Origin: Treponema vincentii
GTDB taxonomy: Bacteria > Spirochaetota > Spirochaetia > Treponematales > Treponemataceae
Assembly (NCBI RefSeq): GCF_010365865.1
Contig: NZ_CP048020.1
Coordinates: 2,790,001 to 2,854,000 of the forward strand
DNA length: 64,000 bases
Reading direction: 5' to 3'
The translations under genes were made by a program, and so were the position numbers. The number at the start of each line of letters is the position of its first letter. Position 1 is the stretch's first letter. Positions 4,502-52,883 of the stretch are shown in pieces. The notes under the pieces are model-generated. The model searched no databases. It had not been told where the DNA came from and was given only the letters and a program-made list of their open reading frames with translations.

Positions 4502-4780
4502 CTAAAGCGGCAGAGCGGCAGAATCAATCAAATGCTGTATTTTTTCTTTTAATGCAAGACGAATAGGCAACACAGGGTAATCCGGTTTATCGATAAGCTG
4601 TACGAAGAGTTGTTTTTGACCGATAGGATTAACTTCAATTAAAAAGTCTATTTTCCCTTTTTGTTCTCTTTCCAGAATATTGTAAACAGCGGTAGCCTCA
4701 AATTCTTCCCGATAATAGATGAGAGAATTCTTTTTTTCAATATCGATAATATCTTCTACAAGCACTACTTTCCTCTCCAT
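4502..4780 (-). CDS. Small protein of unknown function at the end of the flagellar cluster
   Basis: 92 residues, starting MERKVVLVEDIIDIEKKNSL, with no signal peptide, membrane span or motif that I recognise. The ATG directly follows the TAG of the upstream gene (no gap), so translation is probably coupled and the two products may work together. The position, last in a flaB-flaB-fliD run, suggests a link to filament assembly, but that is inference from context only. Confidence 0.7.
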   Translation of the reverse strand: MERKVVLVEDIIDIEKKNSLIYYREEFEATAVYNILEREQKGKIDFLIEVNPIGQKQLFVQLIDKPDYPVLPIRLALKEKIQHLIDSAALPL

Positions 4781-5374
4781 CTAATTTAGGGTTAATGATA
4801 CCCCATTTATCAAAGTTTTGACAAGAGGAGCCAATTCATATTCTGCTAAATCACCAACTTGAATAATATCTTTTTCTTCAATACTCGATACGATATCGCG
4901 CAATAGCGCTGTTATTTCTTTCTGATACTCATGGACTGATTTCCCTTCAATTTGTATATCGAAAGGGAGTTCCGTTACATCAGATAAAAGTAATGACCGG
5001 TACAGTTCATTCAATTTTTCTGAAAACACTCCAAGCAATTTAAGTGCCTGCATATCTTTCCCTGTTTGCATATATACAGGAATCTGCTCAAAGTCATCTG
5101 CACATTTTGACAACTCTTGCGTCAAGCCTTTCATGTAATTACGAATTTCCACTCCGGAGAATGTTGAAAGTTCAATAGTGATATCTGCATCGACGGGCTG
5201 TTTAAATAGCAAATCAAGCTCATGGGAACTCAACTCTTTCCCATCAACCGCTACTTGTACGATTGTCTCATGTTCACGACAACAGGCCTCCTCAATACTG
5301 CCTAATACCTCGCCAACGGTCTTTTCGTTTTCCAGTGTGTATGAAAGTTCTTCGCCATTAATTTTTATTATCAT
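4781..5374 (-). CDS. Unknown protein encoded directly downstream of fliD
   Basis: 197 residues, starting MIIKINGEELSYTLENEKTVGEVL. It is largely helical and acidic, with no membrane segment or signal peptide. I recall a hypothetical gene in the matching position behind fliD in T. pallidum, but cannot confirm homology here. In many bacteria the gene after fliD encodes an export chaperone (FliS or FliT); the size and helical character would allow that, but no FliS motif is visible. It is 60 bases from fliD and abuts the next gene, so an operon is likely. Confidence 0.75.
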   Translation of the reverse strand: MIIKINGEELSYTLENEKTVGEVLGSIEEACCREHETIVQVAVDGKELSSHELDLLFKQPVDADITIELSTFSGVEIRNYMKGLTQELSKCADDFEQIPVYMQTGKDMQALKLLGVFSEKLNELYRSLLLSDVTELPFDIQIEGKSVHEYQKEITALLRDIVSSIEEKDIIQVGDLAEYELAPLVKTLINGVSLTLN

Positions 5375-5434
5375 TTATAGCCATACTCCTCGAATATCAT
5401 CTTCCCGGCAACCATATGAATAATTCACTGTATC

Positions 5435-7423
5435 CTAGTTGTCAGAACTGCCTTTATTTTGTCTACTGAAATTATTGATCATATCCGACTGTTTTTGCAA
5501 ATTCCGTAAAGCCCCATCCATATTCCCATATTTTTGCCGTAACTCCAGCTCTTTTTTTTCAAGCGCCTTGTCGTACCGTGCAATTTTATCCTTACTCGTT
5601 TTAATTTGAGCTGCCAGTCCATTTGTCCGGGTAGAAAAAATTCCACCCCGCTGAACGTATGGATCTATCTGTTTAAACACCTGAAACGCAACGCCATCAT
5701 CAATTAGCACATCATTATCGGTATCATATCCGAAAAGGTAACGGACATCTTCCATCGAATCTTTTAAGGCTTCATCAAGTTTCTTTTCATCGATTTCCAA
5801 ATATCCGCGAAGCCGCGCTTCGTTCAGGCCTGAGCTTGCGTCAGACTTTGTCGATATGCCGATCTGAGATAACGTCCTTATCGGGGTATCGGCGTTCTTT
5901 CGATAGACATTTGCAACAATCTGGCGTAGATTATTCTTTAAAGAAGACAGCGTCGTATCTCCGAAAAGAGCACCGAGGTTTTCTTTCGCCGTTTTGCGTT
6001 CGTCATCAGTAAAATATTCGATCTCGTCGATAACGTTCTGCTGATTACTCGTTACGATATTGATTTCCGCCAAAAGCCGATTGTACTTTGCAACAAATTC
6101 AATGATGGCGTTCTTTGCTGCTTCCGTGTCGGGTTTAATACTGATACTTTCTTTTTTATCCGTTTTATCCTCAAGCTTTAATGTTACGCCCGGAATAAGA
6201 TCGTCAATCTTATTTGTACTCCGTTTTACAGGAATACCTTCAAACGTAAGCACTGCTTCTTGCGCCTGTGAAACAGGATTAACCGGTATGTATTCACCGG
6301 TCGCTTTAGGGTCATATACTTTGATCTGAGCTATCGATACGGTCTTATCGGTGTTGTTATTGTGCACGGCGATGCCGGTAATATCGCCGTATTCGCTCAG
6401 GGGGATACTGAAGGTTTGAAGTTCGGTCGTATCAGCCAATGCAGGTAACGGAATAAGCGTTCCACGCGGTGAAACTAAAGACAGCACACCGTAGTCTTCC
6501 ACAGGTGCAGTAGGTTTTGTATTAAGTCCGAGCGTTTCAGACGCAATACCTGAATCACTCGGCGCATTGGTTACAGTTACCCCCTTATACGACACGGAAC
6601 CAACTTGCCCGTAAATAGCTTCTTCGCTTGAGAGAGGAGTAGCCCCGGATGCGGAAAGCGGAGCGGCCGCCTCAGCGTCGCTTTGCAAAGATACAGTGTA
6701 TTCCAACACATAGTGTTGCGAACTGCGTACCGGGTTTGAAAACGCAATACGTTCCGTTGTTTGGGCGGGGATTACCGCCTCCGTTTTTTCGGCGTCAACG
6801 GCAGGACGGTCATTTTTTTTTATCAGCCCGGTTTCAAGCGCAAAGGATAGTGCGTCATCGGAAAATTCCAGTTTATTAGCTTCCCCTGTCAGCTGTGATT
6901 CAAAAAGTAGCGAAATGGCACTGGGCGAAGTCTTTATTTCCGAAATCCTGATAATATCTTTCCCTTTTTTATTAACAGCATCGATAAAACTCCGGTATTT
7001 TCCACCTTGCCAATTTAGTGAAAATTTTTTTTCACCGACGGTAAAGGTGTATACACCTTTTGGAACTTGAAAGTCTTTCGATACCTCTTGTGATAAAAAA
7101 GAATCCGCTTGTGCAATTTGATTGATGGATATTTTAAAAGTTTGTTCGCGGGCATCTCGCGATGCGGTTGCCGTTATTGCCCGTTCATTAGAAGAAGTAA
7201 CAGTCTTTTCTATAAAAGGATTATTAAATGAATAGAGCTCCCGCGTTTTTTCACGAATTTCGGTAGAAAACTGGTTTATCTTTCGCCAAATAGCATTTTG
7301 CTGTTCGTATTTTTTTAAATCTTCAGCAGCTGAATCGCGCGGGGCACGCTCTTTTTTCATCAGCGTTTCAATGAGATTATCATATTTACCGGCTCCTATG
7401 CCGGGAATATTCATATCGGACAC
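5435..7423 (-). CDS. fliD: Flagellar filament cap / hook-associated protein 2 (FliD)
   Basis: Caps the growing filament and inserts flagellin subunits; in spirochaetes it acts in the periplasm. The 662-residue protein has the FliD N-terminal domain (IPGIGAGKYDNLIETLMKKE, residues 5-24), a long variable middle, and a C-terminal FliD domain. That domain includes LGALFGDTTLSSLKNNLRQI and ends in a coiled coil (about 605-662). The start used is GTG 7423, preceded by AAAGGGG five bases upstream; an in-frame ATG at 7414 is the alternative. It lies behind the second flaB, after a strong terminator and its own promoter (7477-7504), so it can be expressed apart from the flagellins. Confidence 0.93.
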   Translation of the reverse strand: MSDMNIPGIGAGKYDNLIETLMKKERAPRDSAAEDLKKYEQQNAIWRKINQFSTEIREKTRELYSFNNPFIEKTVTSSNERAITATASRDAREQTFKISINQIAQADSFLSQEVSKDFQVPKGVYTFTVGEKKFSLNWQGGKYRSFIDAVNKKGKDIIRISEIKTSPSAISLLFESQLTGEANKLEFSDDALSFALETGLIKKNDRPAVDAEKTEAVIPAQTTERIAFSNPVRSSQHYVLEYTVSLQSDAEAAAPLSASGATPLSSEEAIYGQVGSVSYKGVTVTNAPSDSGIASETLGLNTKPTAPVEDYGVLSLVSPRGTLIPLPALADTTELQTFSIPLSEYGDITGIAVHNNNTDKTVSIAQIKVYDPKATGEYIPVNPVSQAQEAVLTFEGIPVKRSTNKIDDLIPGVTLKLEDKTDKKESISIKPDTEAAKNAIIEFVAKYNRLLAEINIVTSNQQNVIDEIEYFTDDERKTAKENLGALFGDTTLSSLKNNLRQIVANVYRKNADTPIRTLSQIGISTKSDASSGLNEARLRGYLEIDEKKLDEALKDSMEDVRYLFGYDTDNDVLIDDGVAFQVFKQIDPYVQRGGIFSTRTNGLAAQIKTSKDKIARYDKALEKKELELRQKYGNMDGALRNLQKQSDMINNFSRQNKGSSDN

Positions 7424-7476
7424 TTCAACCCCTTTACCGTTAAGCCGGATAAACCCTTTCCATTACATTTTCGGCT

Positions 7477-7504
7477 GTAATAGCTATAATCTTTACGAAG
7501 TCAA
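7477..7504 (-). promoter_or_regulatory. Candidate sigma-70 promoter for fliD
   Basis: On the minus strand TTGACT (7504-7499) and TATTAC (7482-7477) are separated by 16 bases, about 55 bases upstream of the fliD start. The similarity is good but no start site has been mapped. Confidence 0.45.
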
Positions 7505-7564
7505 ATTAGTTACGTGATCTGCAAAATAAATTTACGGATTCCAACCGTTTGAAGATTTTTAGAT

Positions 7565-7604
7565 AAAAAAAAGGAAGAAGAAGGGCGCGGCTTCTTCTTC
7601 CTTT
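7565..7604 (-). terminator. Rho-independent terminator after the second flaB
   Basis: A 14-bp perfect inverted repeat (7570-7583 / 7591-7604) with loop GGCGCGG is followed on the minus strand by a run of T. It is the strongest terminator in the flagellar block and separates flaB from fliD. Confidence 0.85.
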
Positions 7605-7702
7605 TAAATCATGGGAAAAAGAGATAACATCCAGAAATCTCTTTTACTCAAACCTTCACTGTTGATTTAGGTTTGCGTATTCTCTCCCAATTCTCCTGAG
7701 CG

Positions 7703-8560
7703 CTATTGAAGGAGGCGGATAACCGATTGGGGTTGTGTGTTCGCCTGTGCAAGCATTGCCGTACCTGACTGCATCAAGATCTGATTCTTGGTGTACTCAA
7801 CGATCTGCTTTGCCATATCAGCATCGCGGATACGTGATTCAGCAGCCTGCAGGTTTTCAGCAGCAATTGCAACACCATTGTATGCAAGTTCAAAACGGTT
7901 CTGGTATGCACCGAGGTCTGCTCTCTGCTTGTTAATCTGCTTCAATGCATTGTCGATAGTACCGATTGCCATATTAGCACCTTCTACAGAGGAGATGGTG
8001 ATCATATCGCCTTCGCCGCCCTGCATACCGCCGGTAAGACCGAGAGCCAAAGCTGTCATCGTACCAACAAAGAGCTTTTCAGACTGATCCATGTTTGCAC
8101 CGACATGCAACTGCAACTGATTGTCAGCAGCCTCTCTCGCGAAGCGTCCGGTAAGCAGGTTCATACCATTAAACTGAGCATGGCTTGCAATGCGGTCTAC
8201 TTCATCCACAAGTTGAGAAACTTCAACCTGAATTTGCATGCGGTCTTCTGCGGAGTAAATACCGTTAGCAGCCTGAACTGCTAACTCGCGTAAGCGCTGC
8301 ATGATATCGGTGGTTTCAGCTAAATACCCTTCTGTTGCTTGGATAAAGGAAACACCGTTCTGTATGTTCTGGCCTGCTTGATTTAAACCGCGGATCTGGC
8401 TTCTCATTTTTTCGGAAACTGCAAGACCGGAAGCATCATCACCTGCGCGGTTAATGCGCATACCGCTGGAAAGCTTTTCTATGTCTTTTACGATTCTGGT
8501 TTCGACGATGCCTGTGTTGCGCTGTGAATACATAGCGCTCATGTTGTGGTTAATAATCAT
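7703..8560 (-). CDS. flaB: Periplasmic flagellar filament core protein FlaB (second copy, FlaB3-like by position)
   Basis: 285-residue flagellin of the spirochaete core type, without a signal peptide because it is exported through the flagellar apparatus. The N-terminus [15 protein letters not shown] and the region [33 protein letters not shown] are the conserved D0/D1 helices. The C-terminal helix ends in [18 protein letters not shown]. There is almost no D2/D3, as usual for FlaB. Start: ATG 8560 behind AGGAGG; an upstream in-frame start at 8590 would run through the leader hairpin. In T. pallidum the order is flaB1, flaB3, fliD; the same order and a 285-residue length suggest FlaB3. Confidence 0.95.
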
Positions 8561-11229: not shown

Positions 11230-14124
11230 ATGGATACCGGCGATTTAAATACCAATGAACACATTCACCCAGCAGAAGGACACGATATGCCGCCCGCTCC
11301 GGACATCGATATGGAAACAAGTCCGGACGCTACGGTAAGCGGTACTGTCGAAATACCGCCTGATACGCAGACCATTGAAAACGCTGATATGGCAGAGCGG
11401 CAGACGGCGGCACAGGACACCGATACGATACATGCCCCTCCGCATCCGCCCACGAAAAAAAAGCGGAAGAAAAGCGGATTTTTCAAAAAAGCCGGTATCT
11501 TCCTCCTTGTCCTTATTTTGATTATTCTCATTCCGCTTGCAGGGTTAATCGGATATTCATTGATAAACCGGACGAATCCTGCGCGGCATATTGCCGACGG
11601 ATATTATGCTGCGGTTACTATTCGCTCTGCAAGCGATACGCTGCAAAAAGGACTGTACCTCAGCGCCGTCGATTCGCTTCTTTCTTCTCCCGAAACGGCA
11701 GCTTTACAGGGGAATCTCCGTGCATTGCGGTCTAACACAACGCTCCAATCCGACTGGTTTAAGCGGCTGTTGAACGTTCCTATTAATATCGCTGTTTATG
11801 AGGGCGATAATGCAGCGCTTGTTGCGGATATCGGCGTCCGTTCCGCTGCGGTTCAGCTGCTGCCTCTTATTACCGCCGTAAAACCGGAACTGCTTGACTC
11901 AGTGCCAAACCTTTCGAAAACTGAATTTAACATAAACGGCGATACGCAAAAAGGCTTTCTTTTTGAGCTAACTAAAGATCAGACACTATACGTCTGTCTT
12001 TATAAAAATCTTATTGTCGCCGCAACCTCGAAAGACTTGCTCTATTCCTGTTTAGCCGAAAACTCCGAAGCAAGCGGTAAACGACTGACTGCACTGCTGC
12101 GTGCCCCAAACCGCGGAGCAGTCAGCGTATATGCGGAACCGTCGTATTTTCTTTCCGGTATTGCTGCAAAGCGAGATATCGTCGGGAATATGGTACGCGA
12201 ACTTGCATTCCCCGAACCCGCGGCACTCGACGTCAACTTTGATGAAAACACGGTTTCTTTTCATAGCATCATCAATTGGATTTCGGAACAAAGCGAAGTA
12301 AGTACGATACTGCAACGTCGCTCGACACTACCGGCTATTCTATCCCGCCTGCCGGAGGGAACAGCCTATTTAACACTACTCAATCTCGGCGATCCTCAAT
12401 TCCTCTACGAAAATACCAAAGCTTTTTTTCCTCCGGAGCTTACAAAGACATTCAATTCAACGAATAAAAATAGTAAGTTCTTTTTTAACAAAGATTTGAA
12501 CCAGCTTGTTTTTGAATGGGTGGGCAGTGAAATCGGCGTATTCGGTCATCGGGATTCTCAAACACCTGTTTTCTTCCTTTCATTAAAAGATGAGGCAAAG
12601 TGCCGCCATCTGCTGGAAGATCTGTTTAATACGATATTCATCGATCGCAGTACTGCTGCAGTGGTTGATGACAACCGTATCCCGCGTATTGTATTCCCCT
12701 CGTGGCTATTGGGACTGCTGCGTGCTTTCCACATCGACTTGCCGGAACCATTTTATATGATACAAGATGGTTATTTATATCTCTCTAATAGTGCAGAAGC
12801 ACTCGGTATGTGCAAAAAGGAAACCGACACGGGTAAACTCTTGGTAAAAACCGATGAATGGAAGAAAATTGCAAAGGCCGTTTCCGCCGAAACGTCTTTT
12901 TTAGTATACTATTCTCTGGATCGGAGTATCCCGTTCTTCTTGGAACAAAATACACTGCTTAAAACCGCCTTTAAGAATTACGGTAAAGGCGTATTATCGC
13001 TCCGTTTTGCGGCCGGACGTCAAGTCCATTTGGATTTCTATACGCAAAAAACCGATGCGCGTAAATTGGAAGAAATTCCTTCCTTCCCGCGTTCTCTTTC
13101 ACAGCGACCGGAAACCGATATTATCTGTGCAAAAACTGCGGACAATATTCCCTACGTCTTTTGGACAAACAGCTCAAATGTGCAGAGTATGAATCTTTTA
13201 AATGGCAGCGAATCAACACTTTCACTTGATGGAAAGGCGGGAATTGCCGCCGAAATAAAACACTCAAAGCTTCAATCACTGTGGGCGGTTTCGGCTCGCG
13301 GTTCTATCTATCGGACAAACGAAAACTTGGAACCCTTTGCAGGCTATCCCGTATTGACGGCAGAAAAACTCCTTCCTAACCCGGTTGCTTTTAACGGCGG
13401 CATAGCGGTACCGCTTTCTTCCGACTCGGCACTACTCCTTGCCGGTACAACCGATAATTGGTCTACTTCCGACACAATGAATGCAAAACTGCGGGCTGCC
13501 CCTGTTATATTTAAAGACGGTATTGCAGCGCTTCCGCGCTCGTTTGAAAGCAGTTTGTACCTGTTCAATAAAGAAGGAAAAATCGTTGAAGGGTATCCCA
13601 TTGAACTTGAAGGGATCTTTGCTGCAGCGCCGGTATTCTTTGAAGAAACAAAAGGAAACTATGCCGCTGCTTTTGTAAGTGAAGACGGTCGGTTTTCTAT
13701 CCGCAGTTTGTCGAAGGATTATGCGGAGACCGCTTCGTGTGATCTTAATACCGTGTGTAAGGCGGATTTGGCGTATTCTGCATCGTTGCGAGCGTTCTTT
13801 GTCGTTTCGCAAGACGGACATCTGTTTAAATTCAACACTGAAGGCGCGATAACGGACTCGTTACCGTTAAAGACAGGTACTGCGGATGATTACCGTATCA
13901 CATTGCTTGATGTAACCGGTGACGGAAAAGATGAGATATTTATTTCGGGAGGAGGAAACGCTCTTTACGGATATACCTCCGGATTGGCTCCGCTGGACGG
14001 CTTTCCGCTCGCCGGTACGGGAACCCCATATTTACTCGACATTGATGGAGATTCGATTCCTGAACTGATTACGCATGGTATCGATTCAAAAGTCCATGCA
14101 TATCGAGGCGCGGCACTCAGGTAA
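11230..14124 (+). CDS. Large single-span membrane protein with C-terminal FG-GAP/propeller-like repeats
   Basis: 964 residues, function not known to me. An acidic Pro/Thr-rich N-terminal tail of about 75 residues is followed by a KKKRKK stretch and one transmembrane helix at about 89-111 (FLLVLILIILIPLAGLIGYS). The remaining about 850 residues would lie outside the cytoplasm. The last third has repeated units such as LDVTGDGKDEIFISGG and LDIDGDSIPELITHG, typical of FG-GAP/VCBS beta-propeller blades with Ca-binding DxDGD-like loops. It starts 25 bases after the lipoprotein gene and may be co-transcribed with it. It ends in a strong hairpin terminator. Confidence 0.8.
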   Translation: MDTGDLNTNEHIHPAEGHDMPPAPDIDMETSPDATVSGTVEIPPDTQTIENADMAERQTAAQDTDTIHAPPHPPTKKKRKKSGFFKKAGIFLLVLILIILIPLAGLIGYSLINRTNPARHIADGYYAAVTIRSASDTLQKGLYLSAVDSLLSSPETAALQGNLRALRSNTTLQSDWFKRLLNVPINIAVYEGDNAALVADIGVRSAAVQLLPLITAVKPELLDSVPNLSKTEFNINGDTQKGFLFELTKDQTLYVCLYKNLIVAATSKDLLYSCLAENSEASGKRLTALLRAPNRGAVSVYAEPSYFLSGIAAKRDIVGNMVRELAFPEPAALDVNFDENTVSFHSIINWISEQSEVSTILQRRSTLPAILSRLPEGTAYLTLLNLGDPQFLYENTKAFFPPELTKTFNSTNKNSKFFFNKDLNQLVFEWVGSEIGVFGHRDSQTPVFFLSLKDEAKCRHLLEDLFNTIFIDRSTAAVVDDNRIPRIVFPSWLLGLLRAFHIDLPEPFYMIQDGYLYLSNSAEALGMCKKETDTGKLLVKTDEWKKIAKAVSAETSFLVYYSLDRSIPFFLEQNTLLKTAFKNYGKGVLSLRFAAGRQVHLDFYTQKTDARKLEEIPSFPRSLSQRPETDIICAKTADNIPYVFWTNSSNVQSMNLLNGSESTLSLDGKAGIAAEIKHSKLQSLWAVSARGSIYRTNENLEPFAGYPVLTAEKLLPNPVAFNGGIAVPLSSDSALLLAGTTDNWSTSDTMNAKLRAAPVIFKDGIAALPRSFESSLYLFNKEGKIVEGYPIELEGIFAAAPVFFEETKGNYAAAFVSEDGRFSIRSLSKDYAETASCDLNTVCKADLAYSASLRAFFVVSQDGHLFKFNTEGAITDSLPLKTGTADDYRITLLDVTGDGKDEIFISGGGNALYGYTSGLAPLDGFPLAGTGTPYLLDIDGDSIPELITHGIDSKVHAYRGAALR

Positions 14125-18643: not shown

Positions 18644-20584
18644 ATGGTCAAAAGATGGATTTCGGCAGTAGAAATAGCAAATGTCTTAGGAATAGCAAAA
18701 CGGAGCGTAAATAGGCGCGCTCGTAATGAGCAATGGCGGAACCGCTCTATTAAAGCAAACGGCGGTATGACCCAAGTATTTCAGCTTGAATTTCTCCCTG
18801 ACGATGTCCAGCGGGCTTATGCAGCCAGCCTTTCAATGGATTTACAGGCGCTTAAAACAGCATTAAAACCCACGTCTGAGGCAGAAAAAAAGGTACTTAT
18901 CATCTCGTATAACGGGCGTGGCGCGGTAACCAAAGCGATAAAACCGCTTGAAGCGTCAAGCGAAGCGGGCTTACGCATCGCAGCGATGCGCGTCAAACTT
19001 ATCGAAGCCTATTCACAATCGGGGCTTTCGGCAAAAGCCTTTATTGCAGCCTACGAGTCCGGGGCGGTTGCTGCCGATCTCCGCGAGCGGCTCGGACGCT
19101 GGGGCAACATCCATACCCAGTCTAACTTTTATAAAAATTGGCTTGCCGTCTATCAGGAACACGGCATTGCAGGGCTTATCCCGCAATATGCCCGCAGGCG
19201 CGGCGGAGCGGGCGCAAGTTTTGACGAAAAAGCAAAAGAGATTATCAACTCGCTCTACCTTGATTTACGCAAACCGAGCGCAGCATCCGTCACCCGCGAC
19301 TTAGCGCAGTTCGGCTACGATCTCAAATACGTTACCGTCAATCGGTACATCAAAGAAATTCCGAACTCGGTCAAGGTCTTTTATCGGGAAGGACAAAAAG
19401 CCTATCACGATAAATTCGATCCGTACATCGAGCGCGACTACACCCTGTTTAAGGCGATGGAATGGGGCTGCGGCGACCATCATATCTTCGATTTTGTCAT
19501 CATGCACGAAGGGCGCATCTTCCGGCCGTGGGTTACGCTTTTTATGGATATGAGGAGCCGCACCATTACCGGCTGGTGGATTGATGTGGTGCCGAACACC
19601 TTGACGATTATGCGGGCATTTTCGCAAAGCGTTGAGCAGTATGGACTTTTTGAAAATATGCTCGTTGATAACGGCAAGGACTTTAGAAGCGAATGGTTTG
19701 CCGGAAGCGAGTGGAAACAGCGGAGGACACGGCCTGAAACAGAAACGCTTGAGCTCATTGAAGGCGTACTGCAGGACTGCAAAACGAACGTCCATTTTGC
19801 TACTCCCTATCGGGGGCAATCAAAGCCGGTTGAACGCTTTTTTAGAAGCGTTTGCGAGCTTTTTTCAAAGACGCAAGATTTTTATGTCGGCTCCAATACG
19901 GTTGACGCTCCGGAAGATAAAAAACTGTTCTGGGGACGCATCAACGGACGGGACAAGATAGAAGTAACCTACACATTAGAGCAATTACGGCGCGATTTTG
20001 CGCAGTTTGTAACGTGGTTCAATTCGAGCTGGCAGCATTCAGGGCAAGGGATGGACGGTAAAACACCGAATGCAGTGTTTGCCGAAACCTTTGACCACAA
20101 GCGCGAGCTGCCGGAAGAATACCGCAAATACCTCTTTACGGTACGGGAAAAGCGGGTTGTCCAGCGCAACGGCGTATCGATAGACGGTATCAGCTTCTAC
20201 AATCCTGAAATGGTTCGTCTTATCGGCGAAAAGGTCGAAGTCAGGCGCGACATAAACGACATCGGTAAGGCTGCAATTTTCAGTCTGCCTGATTTAGTCT
20301 TTCAGTTCGAGGCGGAAAGCGACGTGTTCAAGGATCGCGGCATTACGGAAGAAAACCTGCGAGCGGTGCGCAAGGAGCAAAGACAAGCCCGTGAGCACTT
20401 GAAAGACTACCGCTGGGATAAGGACATCCGAAACGCGCGGAAAACACCGGCACAATTACTGGCAGAAAAGGTAGAAGAGCCGGAGCCGGTACCGAATGCA
20501 CTTGAAAGCAAAAAAGTTGTCGGCGGGGAGCCGTTAGCGCCGAGGCGTAAGCGCACCTTGCGGCTTCCGATCGATCCTGATTAA
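18644..20584 (+). CDS. Mu-type DDE transposase (protein A)
   Basis: 646 residues. It cuts the phage ends and joins them to target DNA; it drives both integration and replicative transposition. The N-terminus (KRWISAVEIANVLGIAKRS) is the Mu-type winged helix DNA-binding domain. A second HTH-rich region follows to about 240. The rve-like catalytic core has Asp278 (GCGDHH), Asp342 (LVDNGKD) and Glu397 (GQSKPVERFF). The spacings of 64 and 55 residues nearly equal those of MuA (67 and 56). The charged C-terminal part (about 560-646) would contact protein B. The gene looks intact. Confidence 0.96.
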   Translation: MVKRWISAVEIANVLGIAKRSVNRRARNEQWRNRSIKANGGMTQVFQLEFLPDDVQRAYAASLSMDLQALKTALKPTSEAEKKVLIISYNGRGAVTKAIKPLEASSEAGLRIAAMRVKLIEAYSQSGLSAKAFIAAYESGAVAADLRERLGRWGNIHTQSNFYKNWLAVYQEHGIAGLIPQYARRRGGAGASFDEKAKEIINSLYLDLRKPSAASVTRDLAQFGYDLKYVTVNRYIKEIPNSVKVFYREGQKAYHDKFDPYIERDYTLFKAMEWGCGDHHIFDFVIMHEGRIFRPWVTLFMDMRSRTITGWWIDVVPNTLTIMRAFSQSVEQYGLFENMLVDNGKDFRSEWFAGSEWKQRRTRPETETLELIEGVLQDCKTNVHFATPYRGQSKPVERFFRSVCELFSKTQDFYVGSNTVDAPEDKKLFWGRINGRDKIEVTYTLEQLRRDFAQFVTWFNSSWQHSGQGMDGKTPNAVFAETFDHKRELPEEYRKYLFTVREKRVVQRNGVSIDGISFYNPEMVRLIGEKVEVRRDINDIGKAAIFSLPDLVFQFEAESDVFKDRGITEENLRAVRKEQRQAREHLKDYRWDKDIRNARKTPAQLLAEKVEEPEPVPNALESKKVVGGEPLAPRRKRTLRLPIDPD

Positions 20585-25028: not shown

Positions 25029-25304
25029 ATGAGAAATAAAATAATTGACTTACACAATGCACTATTTGCAGAACTTGAAGCGTTACAAGATGAGGATAGT
25101 TTCAAAGATGAAAATGGGAATATCGACAATACGAAAGTTGAGATTGCCATTAAACGCGCTGATGCAGTAAACAGCATTGCCGGGAGAATTACGGAATTGA
25201 CGCGGCTTCAACTTGATGCTGTTCGCGTTGCTGACAATATGGGAATGTCGATACAGTTGCCGGAGACTCTTGGGGCAAAAGAAATCGACTGGAGAAAAAA
25301 ATAG
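25029..25304 (+). CDS. Unknown phage protein (91 aa, helical)
   Basis: 91 residues behind AAGGAGG. It is mostly helical (IIDLHNALFAELEALQDEDSF ... AIKRADAVNSIAGRI), without membrane span or motif. The pattern recalls small phage proteins of unknown role that precede HNH genes, but there is nothing firm. Confidence 0.65.
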   Translation: MRNKIIDLHNALFAELEALQDEDSFKDENGNIDNTKVEIAIKRADAVNSIAGRITELTRLQLDAVRVADNMGMSIQLPETLGAKEIDWRKK

Positions 25305-25317
25305 GCAATGGTGTGAT

Positions 25318-26088
25318 ATGAGTACGGTTAAGTGGACGAGAGAAATTGATAACTGGATTAAAGAGCGCTGCCCCATTCGTGAACATGGATACACTCAGAT
25401 TCAGCACATGGTCGATGAGCTTAACAAAATGTTTCACACGGACTTTAGCATAACTGCATTCAAGGCAAACTGTTACAGCAAAGGATTTAACCTTGGGGTA
25501 ATGAAAAGCGCAAACCATCGTCGAGGTGTAAAACACCATCGACACAAACCGATCGGCAGCTTGCGAGAAAAAAAAGGCTATGTGCAGATAAAGATCGCAG
25601 AACCGAATAAATGGATGCAGTATCAGCGGTATGTGTGGGAACAACACCATCCAGGTGAGAGTGCGGAAGGAATGGTAGTTATTTTCATGGACGGTAATAG
25701 TCGTAACTTTGATCCTTCAAACCTTGAGCGCGTTTTACGAGGAGAATTAAACGTTATGGCTCGCATGGGACATACAGCAGCAATGTCACGCGAAGAGCGG
25801 GACATCTGTTTACTCAGGGCGCGAGTTGCCATAGCAAAGGTAAACCTTGCAGGACGTGAGAAAGCTTACGCACTCCACAATAAAGCAAACTACGAACGAA
25901 AAAAAAACGATCCTGCAGAAAAGGCAAAAAGAGCCGCGTATGCAAAACAACGGCTTGCAAACATTATGGCTGATCCGGTAAAGCACGAAGCGTATCTTTG
26001 TAAGCAGCGGGAATACAGAGCAAAGAACTGCGAGCGGTTGAATGCGCAAGCACGTGAATATTGGCGACAGAAAAGGAATAAGAAATGA
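25318..26088 (+). CDS. HNH endonuclease-like protein
   Basis: 256 residues. The segment YQRYVWEQHHPGESAEGMVVIFMDGNSRNFDPSNLERV matches the phage HNH_3 core (W..h.....eG..V.f.DGN..N....NL). The usual second His is replaced by Phe in VVIFMDGN, as in a subset of phage relatives, so catalytic competence is uncertain. The N-terminus is an HTH-like segment (TQIQHMVDELNKMFHTDFSITAFKANC). The C-terminal 80 residues are very basic and probably bind DNA. Start chosen at ATG 25318. The stop overlaps the recombinase start by four bases. Confidence 0.7.
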   Translation: MSTVKWTREIDNWIKERCPIREHGYTQIQHMVDELNKMFHTDFSITAFKANCYSKGFNLGVMKSANHRRGVKHHRHKPIGSLREKKGYVQIKIAEPNKWMQYQRYVWEQHHPGESAEGMVVIFMDGNSRNFDPSNLERVLRGELNVMARMGHTAAMSREERDICLLRARVAIAKVNLAGREKAYALHNKANYERKKNDPAEKAKRAAYAKQRLANIMADPVKHEAYLCKQREYRAKNCERLNAQAREYWRQKRNKK

Positions 26089-26693
26089 TTTATGCGTATA
26101 TCAGAGTAAGTACGGAAAAGCAAACTGTCGAAAATCAACGCTTTGAAATACATAACTGGGCAGAAAATAGACATATCAGGATCGATAGATATGTAGAAGA
26201 AATTATGTCTGGTACAGTAGCCATCGGGCACCGTAAACTTGGAGATTTAAGCAAGGAATTACAAAAAGATGATGTGCTAATTGTAAGCGAACTTTCACGG
26301 CTCGGCAGAAGTCTTTTGAATGTAATGAGCTTTCTAAATGTCTGCATTGAACGGAATATCAAAGTGTTTTCGATTAAAGAGAATTTTGAATTTGCAGACA
26401 ATATTAACTCAAAAGTTTTAGCATTTGCTTTTTCCTTAGCAGCAGAAATTGAGCGGCAACTGATTAGTCAAAGAACAAAAGAAGCGCTTGCTTTGCGGCG
26501 TGCTCAAGGTGTTGTGTTAGGTCGCCCACAAGGTAAAAAGAATGCTGCTGAACGATATAAGTTGTACGGCAAAGAAGCGGAGATACAAGACTATTTAAGT
26601 AAGAAGATACCAAAGGCAGCGATCGGCAGGTTATTGGGTGTGCACCGAATAACGGTTGATAAGTTCATAAAAGAAAATAATCTTTTGGAGTGA
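26085..26693 (+). CDS. Serine recombinase (resolvase/invertase family)
   Basis: 202 residues. The catalytic Ser9 lies in AYIRVSTEKQ; LSRLGRSLLNVM carries the conserved Arg residues; the E-helix and a C-terminal HTH (KAAIGRLLGVHRITVDKFI) follow. The size and domain order are those of Hin/Gin/PinR invertases and resolvases. In Mu, Gin inverts the tail-fibre segment, but there it sits at the right end. Here the gene sits in the early cargo, far from the fibre gene, so the target is open: prophage dimers, a cargo segment or a host site. Confidence 0.88.
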   Translation: MIYAYIRVSTEKQTVENQRFEIHNWAENRHIRIDRYVEEIMSGTVAIGHRKLGDLSKELQKDDVLIVSELSRLGRSLLNVMSFLNVCIERNIKVFSIKENFEFADNINSKVLAFAFSLAAEIERQLISQRTKEALALRRAQGVVLGRPQGKKNAAERYKLYGKEAEIQDYLSKKIPKAAIGRLLGVHRITVDKFIKENNLLE

Positions 26694-26699
26694 TTCACA

Positions 26700-27029
26700 A
26701 TGGGGAAAAATACTTTTTATCATGATTTATTACAAACGGCATTATCTTGTGATATTAAAATACTCAATGATGATTTTTGTTGTAAGCTCTTAGCGTGGTT
26801 ATATATCTTTGGTGGAGGACACGAAAAAGTTATTTACAATATAAAAATGAGAGCGGAAATTCAGTATGCACAAAAGCGGCTTAATCTGTATGCAGGAGAA
26901 ATCTGCAATCAAACATTACTACCATTACTTAAACAGCGAATACAAGAATGTGGTACACATTTTAATCCGATTCTCCCTGCATGGATAGCAGAAATTGATG
27001 ATCGATACGGAATAAAAACACGGTGCTAA
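26700..27029 (+). CDS. Unknown protein between two recombinase genes (109 aa)
   Basis: 109 residues (MGKNTFYHDLLQTALSCDIKIL...), mostly helical, five Cys, no recognised motif. It lies seven bases after the serine recombinase and 15 before the tyrosine recombinase, so all three are probably co-transcribed. Confidence 0.6.
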   Translation: MGKNTFYHDLLQTALSCDIKILNDDFCCKLLAWLYIFGGGHEKVIYNIKMRAEIQYAQKRLNLYAGEICNQTLLPLLKQRIQECGTHFNPILPAWIAEIDDRYGIKTRC

Positions 27030-27044
27030 TATAAGGAGGACGGT

Positions 27045-29345
<2,301 letters not shown>

Positions 29346-50921: not shown

Positions 50922-51365
50922 ATGCAGAAAATAAAAGATCCCTTCCCGATTCGAGGGATTTTTGAAATGACGGTAAAACGAAACGGTATAGTTATCGAAC
51001 GCTACCGGGACAAGAACCTCATTGTAAACGGTGCCCGCAATCAAGCAGCACGGCTTTTTGCCGGAGACAGCGTAAATCGAGCAATTGCAAAAATCGCATT
51101 CGGTACAAACGGTACCGATCCTGTCATCGGCGATACCGCTATCACAAACGCATTTGTAAAAGATGTTGTAGGCTTTGAATTTCCGGACATGGGACAGATA
51201 CAGACCAACTGGCTACTGAACACTGACGAAAACAACGGTATGGCAATTATTGAGTTTGGACTTTTGTCGGTTGATGGAACACTGTTATGCCGAAAGGTAC
51301 GGACAAAGCCCATCAATAAAGAAGCGGATATCAGCATCGAAGGCAGCTGGACTTGGATTTTTTAA
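50922..51365 (+). CDS. Tail-fibre-proximal protein (147 aa)
   Basis: 147 residues. The pattern TVKRNGIVIERYRDKNLIVNGARNQAARLFAGD ... IAFGTNGTDPVIGDTAITNAF is shared by small phage proteins upstream of fibre genes. A collar or fibre-attachment role is likely. AAGGAGG before the ATG of the next gene. Confidence 0.7.
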   Translation: MQKIKDPFPIRGIFEMTVKRNGIVIERYRDKNLIVNGARNQAARLFAGDSVNRAIAKIAFGTNGTDPVIGDTAITNAFVKDVVGFEFPDMGQIQTNWLLNTDENNGMAIIEFGLLSVDGTLLCRKVRTKPINKEADISIEGSWTWIF

Positions 51366-51377
51366 GGAGGTAAATAC

Positions 51378-52433
51378 ATGGCGAATTTGAAAGAAGAGGC
51401 AAAATGGGAAGAGGGCATCTACCAGTACGAACTTGACGACCCGCTCCAAGGCGGGGAAGACGGCATCGATAACGTACAGGGGAGACAACTTGCAAACCGT
51501 ACAAAGTATCTGAAAGAGACCTATGAACAGCATGCAGCAGTCGTCAATCCGCACAACGTAACAGCAGAGCAAACCGGTGCGTATACGAAACAAGAGATTG
51601 ACTCGAAGCTCACTAAACTGAAAGCTGATATATCTACAAATCAGAATGTGGACGCAATGTTTGCTAAATTGACATCTCACGGCGGCTGCACTGACGGCAG
51701 AAATCTTCTTGACGTTTTTGGGAAAACCACAGTAGCTGAAGTTATGGAAATCCTACATAACAAATGCAACGGCGAAGGAAAAGCAGACTTTTCAGGGCTG
51801 ATGATTGGTGATTATCTTGATTTGCCAAGTCTTACGGTTGACGGCACTACTTACACATGGAACGATACCTACCGGAACCTGCGCGTTGTTATTTCGGGAT
51901 TTAATCATTATATCTACTGTGGCAATCAAGATGGGAATAAAAAGAATCATATTCTTTGGACGTTCCGTAATGTCGTATTGCAAAAAAGAATGAATGCGAC
52001 AGATACAAATGCAGGCGGTTATGGGACGAGTGAGTTAAAAAATTATCTTGATGGAGTTTTTGCGGTCGGATTGGGTAATGCGCTTGGTTCAAGCGGTTAT
52101 TTATATACAATCAGTCGGGCTATTTCAATAAAAGGCAATAGTGCCTTTGTAACAGATACTGTTTTCTTGCCTACCGAGGTAGAGGTGTTTGGAGTTCCTA
52201 CTTATGGAGACGATCAAATTACATGGAATACTAACATTCAATATCCTATCTATCGCGACTCTTCATTCTACCGTGTCAAAACATATAACGGTCTCCGTGC
52301 TTGGTTGTGGGAAGGAACGCCGGTGGCCTCGGACTCCAAGTGGTTTTGCGGTATCAACTTCAGTGGTGGTAGCTACCGCATCATTGCGAGTGGTGACTAC
52401 GGTGGCGTTGCCCCGGCTTTCTGTACCTGTTAA
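51378..52433 (+). CDS. Tail fibre / receptor-binding protein with C-type-lectin-like end (DGR target candidate)
   Basis: 351 residues. The N-terminal half has fibre features (GIDNVQGRQLANRTKYLKETYEQH, VNPHNVTAEQTGAYTKQEID). The C-terminal about 180 residues are of the DUF6273/C-type-lectin-like kind with TYTWNDTYRNLRVVISGFNHYI. The end RAWLWEGTPVASDSKWFCG followed by S-Y-R-I-I-A-S-G-D-Y and GVAPAFC resembles variable regions of DGR-diversified receptor-binding proteins. In the last 40 codons many exposed positions use NNC/NNT codons (GAC, ATC, TTC, AGC, TAC, CGC, GAC, TAC). Two hairpins follow directly. No reverse transcriptase or template repeat lies in the window. Confidence 0.82.
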   Translation: MANLKEEAKWEEGIYQYELDDPLQGGEDGIDNVQGRQLANRTKYLKETYEQHAAVVNPHNVTAEQTGAYTKQEIDSKLTKLKADISTNQNVDAMFAKLTSHGGCTDGRNLLDVFGKTTVAEVMEILHNKCNGEGKADFSGLMIGDYLDLPSLTVDGTTYTWNDTYRNLRVVISGFNHYIYCGNQDGNKKNHILWTFRNVVLQKRMNATDTNAGGYGTSELKNYLDGVFAVGLGNALGSSGYLYTISRAISIKGNSAFVTDTVFLPTEVEVFGVPTYGDDQITWNTNIQYPIYRDSSFYRVKTYNGLRAWLWEGTPVASDSKWFCGINFSGGSYRIIASGDYGGVAPAFCTC

Positions 52434-52476
52434 GGTACAGAAATGTAGCTTTAATCCGGCGGCGTAATGCCGCCGG
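52418..52476 (+). promoter_or_regulatory. Two hairpins at the 3' end of the tail-fibre gene
   Basis: Hairpin 1: TTTCTGTACCT (52418-52428), loop GTTA, AGGTACAGAAA (52433-52443), a perfect 11-bp stem spanning the stop codon. Hairpin 2: CCGGCGGC (52456-52463), loop GTAAT, GCCGCCGG (52469-52476), a perfect 8-bp GC stem. Neither has a T-run. Short stems with 4-5-base loops right behind the variable region are required for target recognition in studied DGRs. Confidence 0.65.
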
Positions 52477-52505
52477 CAGAGGAAATAATATAAGGAGTAT
52501 TAAGT

Positions 52506-52883
52506 ATGGAAGACAGCACTACAAAAAAGGTCTACTTAGCGATAAAAGGAGATGCAGTCATTCATCATACTGATTTGTCGGCTATGGAGAGCATGGACGG
52601 CATCAGTCAACCTGATATGACAATTACGGAAGAAGAATTTTATGCAGCCGACGGCCTTGTGCGCCTTATCGACGGCAGAATCTTCTTAGGGAAGACTGAT
52701 GCCGAAAAGACCGGCGAGGAAGCAATTGAAAAAATCCGCGTTCTTAAAAAGAACCTTGCAGAAACGGACTATATCGCTGCTAAAATTGCCGAAGGTGGCG
52801 CAACAACAAAAGAGTATGCCGACAAAATCGCACAGCGCGCAGCATGGCGGAAAGAAATCAGCGAGCTGGAAAGTGCACTTTAA
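52506..52883 (+). CDS. Tail fibre assembly-type protein (125 aa)
   Basis: 125 residues behind TAAGGAG. A beta-rich first half (KKVYLAIKGDAVIHHTDLSAMESMDGISQPDMTITEEEF) and a coiled-coil second half (EAIEKIRVLKKNLAETDYIAAKIAEGGATTKEYADKIAQRAAWRKEI). Proteins of this form follow fibre genes in many phages as assembly chaperones. Confidence 0.65.
   Translation: MEDSTTKKVYLAIKGDAVIHHTDLSAMESMDGISQPDMTITEEEFYAADGLVRLIDGRIFLGKTDAEKTGEEAIEKIRVLKKNLAETDYIAAKIAEGGATTKEYADKIAQRAAWRKEISELESAL

Follow-up and report, generated by a model that had tools for sequence, protein, structure and literature searches.

A tail fibre of a Mu-like prophage in Treponema vincentii very probably ends in a formerly active target of a diversity-generating retroelement (DGR), whose mutator cassette of Avd, template repeat (TR) and reverse transcriptase (RT) has been deleted in this prophage lineage. 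DGR surveys take the RT as their starting point, and targets that lack one are therefore missed. We compared the window, by which we mean the whole 64-kb stretch analysed, with the rest of its genome (a single 2.98-Mb contig) and with homologous fibre domains, 64–75% identical, from uncultured Treponema genomes and viral contigs. The fibre and the parts of it that matter here are:

51378–52433, forward strand: tail fibre gene, 351 aa, from an ORF call
51738–52430, forward strand: C-terminal DUF6273-type (C-lectin-like) receptor-binding domain of the fibre, assigned by homology and a model
52313–52420, forward strand: orphan variable repeat (VR), core 52317–52416, aligned over 108 bp to the TR of the relative L060
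52401–52416, forward strand: conserved VR 3' end (IMH-like), 16 bases identical to the L060 TR

The fibre N-terminus is a phage-fibre module of Mu/P2-like phages (phrog_10372, phrog_3100 and phrog_4209, tail fibre, 1e-21 to 6e-17). The C-terminal domain, which shares its 64–75% identity with domains of DGR-bearing phages, could be named through its relatives only: Pfam and NCBIfam searches with the window fibre itself returned nothing relevant, searches by peptide patterns from the window protein alone gave nothing, so that alignments of relatives were required, and 10 of 14 relatives of the domain match Pfam DUF6273 (PF19789). An AlphaFold (AF2) model of the domain built on a 22-row alignment reached a pLDDT of 90.9 and a pTM of 0.90 (pLDDT 37 with 14 rows). 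Its viral neighbours in Foldseek are DUF6273 proteins (best TM 0.88), and solved PDB lectins come up at a non-significant E of about 1 only. The original prediction of a C-type-lectin-like variable region fits a DUF6273 receptor-binding domain, for which a lectin fold is likely. DUF6273 resembles C-type lectins by AlphaFold and DALI of gut phage targets (tentaclins, PMC10743442), and in Faecalibacterium prophages the VR maps to the C-terminal end of DUF6273 (PMC11792537); the window VR occupies the last ~108 bp of the domain. The fibre tip would bind a treponeme surface receptor.

The closest relative, L060, has a fibre domain 74–75% identical to that of the window and retains a TR. Against this TR the window VR is changed at 20 of 32 template adenines versus 11 of 68 other bases (Fisher p=5.8e-6), an adenine specificity that is measured against a relative's template, with ~16% background divergence, because the lineage's own TR is gone. 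Third codon positions hold 7 of the 11 non-adenine differences. Two intact templates, those of L060 and L054, differ from each other at 1–2 of 33 adenines and at 12–13 of 67 other bases; given this similar background at non-adenine positions, the non-adenine differences of the VR are ordinary divergence, and its adenine changes are as in an active pair. As an internal control, the 572 aligned bases of this domain that precede the VR have 37 of 168 adenines versus 113 of 404 other bases changed, with no adenine excess. The codons had been proposed to be adenine-derived, and 12 of the 13 that read AAC or AAT in the L060 TR are indeed changed in the window, while 12 of 13 retain C or T at the third position; codons 52401–52415 are unchanged. 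The DGR-type variable module proposed for the fibre C-terminus, whose residues had been quoted correctly, is therefore borne out by an adenine bias against the L060 TR, and by this signature the fibre is a genuine, formerly active DGR target.

Adenine-only pairs are found in the homologous gene of relatives that carry their own template (L054–L058, L061 and L062). The VR/TR pairs of seven relatives differ at 10–20 of 28–33 adenines and at 0–2 other positions. In L034/L054 and L036/L055, whose fibre is followed directly by TR and RT, the changes affect 20 of 33 adenines (elsewhere 0/67) and 14 of 28 adenines (elsewhere 0/66), respectively, and in L058 they affect 8 of 21 adenines and 0 of 72 other bases.

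Two hairpins had been described directly behind the VR, and both are present with perfect stems:

52418–52443, forward strand: hairpin 1, 11-bp stem (52418–52428/52433–52443), loop GTTA, spanning the stop codon
52456–52476, forward strand: hairpin 2, 8-bp GC stem (52456–52463/52469–52476), loop GTAAT

The stop codon, TAA at 52431–52433, lies within hairpin 1, and both hairpins are at most 60 bp downstream of the VR. Perfect stems with 3–5-nt loops are rare in the whole 64-kb window (n = 2 at a stem length of at least 10 bp; 10 sites at 8 bp or more). Apart from hairpin 1, a perfect stem of 11 bp or longer that encloses a short loop occurs once in the window, at 758–784 (loop of 5 nt), distant from the fibre. 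Pairing was counted by script on the stem arms, as MAFFT misaligned the hairpin loops, in a comparison that took in two further target families from other treponemes. For hairpin 1 it is kept, with compensatory changes, in 76 of 80 pairs from 8 target types (matched by 6 of 20,000 arm shuffles), and for hairpin 2 in 62 of 72 pairs from 9 target types (8 of 20,000). Both hairpins stand at the same position behind the VR in all intact targets examined, with stem sequences that differ yet pair; L053 has hairpin 1 only. Across targets, loop 1 is GTTA, GCTA or 3 nt long, and loop 2 has 5 nt. The VR end together with the hairpin had no exact DNA match among viral contigs. In Bordetella phage BPP-1 the target stem is required for homing, with structure rather than sequence being decisive (Guo 2011, PMC3240598), and the hairpins of the window's lineage would have acted in homing too.

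That there was never a DGR, the NNC/NNT codons having arisen by ordinary selection and the hairpins being transcription terminators, is an explanation to which we give almost no credence. A hairpin that follows a stop codon may serve as a terminator, and the VR is short, but neither window hairpin is followed by a T run, their pairs covary at a fixed place behind the VR, the adenine-specific excess against a relative's TR contrasts with a flat internal control, and relatives have perfect adenine-only TR/VR pairs in the homologous gene.

The surroundings of the fibre show where the cassette would have been:

50922–51365, forward strand: gene directly upstream of the fibre, kept in L058, L038 and Pseudomonas phage Bise at 47–72% identity
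52477–52505, forward strand: putative scar of cassette loss, where relatives carry Avd-TR-RT (~2.1 kb)
52506–52883, forward strand: 125-aa ORF, which sits behind the RT in relatives and is 76% identical to L060 12826–13197
53090–53929, forward strand: D12-class adenine methyltransferase (Dam; PF02086, 6e-29), 72% identical to L058 13439–14245

The prophage is Mu-like: GemA, a Mu portal, a Mu F-like protein, a phage tail protein and baseplate J were recognized, and Mu transposase domains lie at 18644–20584 of the window. The fibre was found in no other genome of the genus set. The claim that the 64-kb window holds neither RT nor template was confirmed by search. In L060 the order is fibre, Avd (phrog_3206 'Avd protein of DGR', 5.5e-7), TR (11312–11419), RT (11682–12929) and a homologue of the 125-aa ORF. 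L058, from a Spirochaetia genome, shares the gene order of the window (baseplate J, tail gene, the gene at 50922, fibre, 125-aa ORF, Dam) and carries Avd, TR and RT between fibre and 125-aa ORF. Homologues of this ORF are also found in L058, L038 and L053, and Dam is the next gene after it both in the window and in L058. The distance from the fibre stop to the 125-aa ORF is 72 bp in the window versus 2135 in L060 and 2163 in L058. The left part of the homology between window and L060 ends at 52475 (L060 ~10735), at the end of hairpin 2, and homology resumes at 52480 (L060 ~12800), immediately upstream of the 125-aa ORF's ribosome-binding site. A short tblastn match to 'RT' at ~52520–52606 of the window was rejected as an independent RT remnant: it corresponds to the frame of the RT tail, which in L060 overlaps the 125-aa ORF.

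Among the 17 loci with at least 2 kb of sequence behind the fibre, the RT lies directly downstream in 15, several of which are near-identical contigs and do not count as independent; the two that depart from this are the window and L053. At L053 6238–6544 the fibre is followed by hairpin 1, then AAGGCGG, then post-TR sequence, and a 79-aa RT stump is retained. On this arrangement L053 is a second, independent cassette loss. AAGGCGG, from the left arm of its hairpin 2, runs into post-TR sequence of the L060 type, and post-TR sequence of L060 also contains AAGGCGG, so this loss was probably mediated by a short direct repeat (7-base junction homology).

Our preferred reading, deletion from a DGR-bearing ancestor, has the following course. 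The ancestral order would have been fibre/VR, hairpins, Avd, TR, RT, 125-aa ORF and Dam, and we infer from the relatives that the cassette lay in cis in the ancestor of the window's lineage. TR RNA would have been reverse-transcribed with errors at adenines to give cDNA that took the place of the VR, at a target site marked by the two hairpins. Avd, TR and RT would then have been lost in a deletion that began immediately downstream of hairpin 2 and ended shortly ahead of the 125-aa ORF. The receptor-binding tip would now be fixed and change by ordinary mutation only, leaving the window VR static.

Alternatively, a fibre with a diversified tip could have been acquired ready-made from a DGR phage by recombination, in a lineage that never had the cassette. 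Fibres are mosaic, in that the N-terminal module of the window fibre is unlike that of the L060 fibre and the C-terminal domain is common to both. We nevertheless consider such an origin unlikely, since L058, which is the same phage type on both sides (upstream genes 43–61%, Dam 72%), has the cassette at exactly this site and since L060 homology resumes immediately behind the missing block. A cassette gained by the relatives instead of lost in the window lineage would leave a similar-looking pattern. Both cassette gain in the relatives and fibre acquisition by recombination would still need past diversification of the VR.

The original prediction had further proposed that a DGR acts on the fibre in trans, and a whole-genome check for an RT and for a near-copy of the VR returned an RT that is part of another, broken DGR, and no near-copy. 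Blastn of the genome with the window VR and with the TRs of two relatives found no second copy of the VR; the L060 TR has one significant match, the window VR itself (E 1.5e-7). Any template for the VR must at each position have the VR base or A, and a genome-wide pattern of this form, 61 bases long and allowing up to 3 mismatches, hits the VR only. Small blastn matches to the VR elsewhere in the genome were discarded, those read in context being chance short matches and one the hairpin itself. With the assembly estimated to be 96% complete, there is a small chance that TR and RT lie on a separate replicon.

The sole RT in the genome is at C1:1175.8 kb, 1.67 Mb from the window. It belongs to a DGR of the host on the reverse strand (L010, G000:C1:1171000–1182000, 4645–7858) made up of an FGE-sulfatase-type target, a TR, an HRDC protein ahead of the RT (Pfam E 3e-20) and the RT, and it matches the arrangement of the T. 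denticola TvpA DGR (PMC4891356), separate from the fibre. Its template/VR pair is changed at 10 of 25 adenines and 4 of 87 other positions. The host TR, at about L010:6560–6702, encodes the FGE motif and is unrelated to the window VR, and a search with it did not have the window fibre among its matches. Because its template is unrelated, the host RT cannot serve the fibre; in addition, its reading frame is broken by insertions with stops. The insertions look like dispersed palindromic repeats, and related ~100-bp repeats occur dozens of times genome-wide; loci related to the host DGR lie near 1.539 and 1.571 Mb.

Judged by this template, the window fibre is not a target of the host's TvpA-like DGR, and with neither a usable RT nor a matching TR in the genome it does not appear to be part of an active DGR. 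Diversification in trans by another DGR of the same genome is accordingly highly improbable. The genome does have another DGR, which is TvpA-like and whose FGE-type targets are scattered, and DGRs of relatives serve second targets ~19 kb away with 0 non-adenine changes (L033 versus the L034 TR), yet the host TR, which codes for an FGE-sulfatase motif, does not match the window VR, no sequence consistent with a template exists elsewhere in the genome (up to 3 mismatches in 61), the host RT is interrupted, and the relatives have their cassette in cis. The proposal of action in trans was thus not upheld.

RT and TR could also be supplied by a co-infecting or superinfecting DGR phage, the orphan VR being a latent acceptor that is rewritten at times. 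The 3' end of the window VR equals the L060 TR over 16 bases, both hairpins are intact, and closely related DGR phages exist (L060, and further L059+L074). Against these stand the absence of such an element from this genome and the 11 non-adenine differences from the nearest TR, by which the window VR is no recent copy of that TR, and we regard this scenario as very unlikely. Only marginally less so is the idea that the orphan VR, its hairpins and IMH-like end still intact, persists as a dormant docking site: the phage would live with a fixed tip that the DGR of a co-resident or superinfecting relative could diversify anew in trans, and cassette loss would be a reversible switch between searching for and keeping receptor specificity.

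The fibre can be compared with several known systems. In the Bordetella phage BPP-1 DGR (mtd, Avd, TR, RT; PMC3240598), too, the VR forms the 3' end of a gene for a receptor-binding protein, C-lectin-like in its fold as is likely for the window domain; a short GC stem with a loop of 4 nt follows the VR immediately, spanning the stop codon or close to it, and the order Avd-TR-RT is that seen in the window's relatives. In contrast to BPP-1, the window is without Avd, TR and RT and has two hairpins instead of one, and its loop is GTTA (GCTA in relatives), not the GRNA given for the loops of phage DGR target hairpins (PMC3240598). With the T. denticola TvpA DGR the window shares a treponeme host and orphan targets: 8 of 17 strains keep 2–6 target genes without TR and RT (PMC4891356). 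The TvpA targets, lipoproteins of the FGE-sulfatase type, belong to a chromosomal DGR of the HRDC type, whereas the window has a prophage tail fibre with DUF6273 and, in relatives, an Avd-type cassette. Gut phage DGR targets have the same DUF6273 domain (PMC10743442, PMC11792537), in other phages and hosts and with intact cassettes. Pseudomonas phage Bise (OR683401) has a homologous upstream gene and a fibre 28% identical over residues 1–245, but its cassette is present: downstream, an RT is annotated and a bAvd-type protein is encoded.

Orphan DGR targets were thus already known from T. denticola chromosomes (PMC4891356), and the window adds a case from a phage, in which the empty site is precise and the matching intact state is at hand. 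Together with relatives that are intact and share the gene order, and with the second, independent loss in L053, the empty site offers a natural before/after pair, and these comparisons indicate that phages can drop the mutator yet keep its product. It can now be tested whether a good receptor fit becomes fixed by loss of the mutator and whether rewriting of orphan targets in trans can occur, and the two-hairpin target signature is usable to find orphan VRs without an RT.

Some further observations concern the relatives and the prophage. A second, unrelated protein with the same kind of VR is found in relatives G124 (L033 3277–4098) and G224 (L037 8108–8911). With 0 non-adenine differences between the second target of L033 and the G124 template (L034 TR), one DGR in G124 is, by this comparison, diversifying two protein types ~19 kb apart on one contig. 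In the DGR phage of G224 the RT (L055 11566–12850) is in two frames and the VR/TR pair is still adenine-only, which suggests a DGR moving towards decay or, alternatively, a sequencing error. Two incomplete treponeme genomes hold DUF6273 targets with a VR and both hairpins (L041 9133–9786 and L042 9625–10278), in which a phage-type RT was not found; these are possible further orphan targets. Inside the Mu-like prophage, between the early genes and the terminase, a block at 25213–29280 of the window carries a resolvase and a tyrosine recombinase (Pfam) and a gene resembling a type I restriction methylase (HsdM), and looks like a separate insertion.
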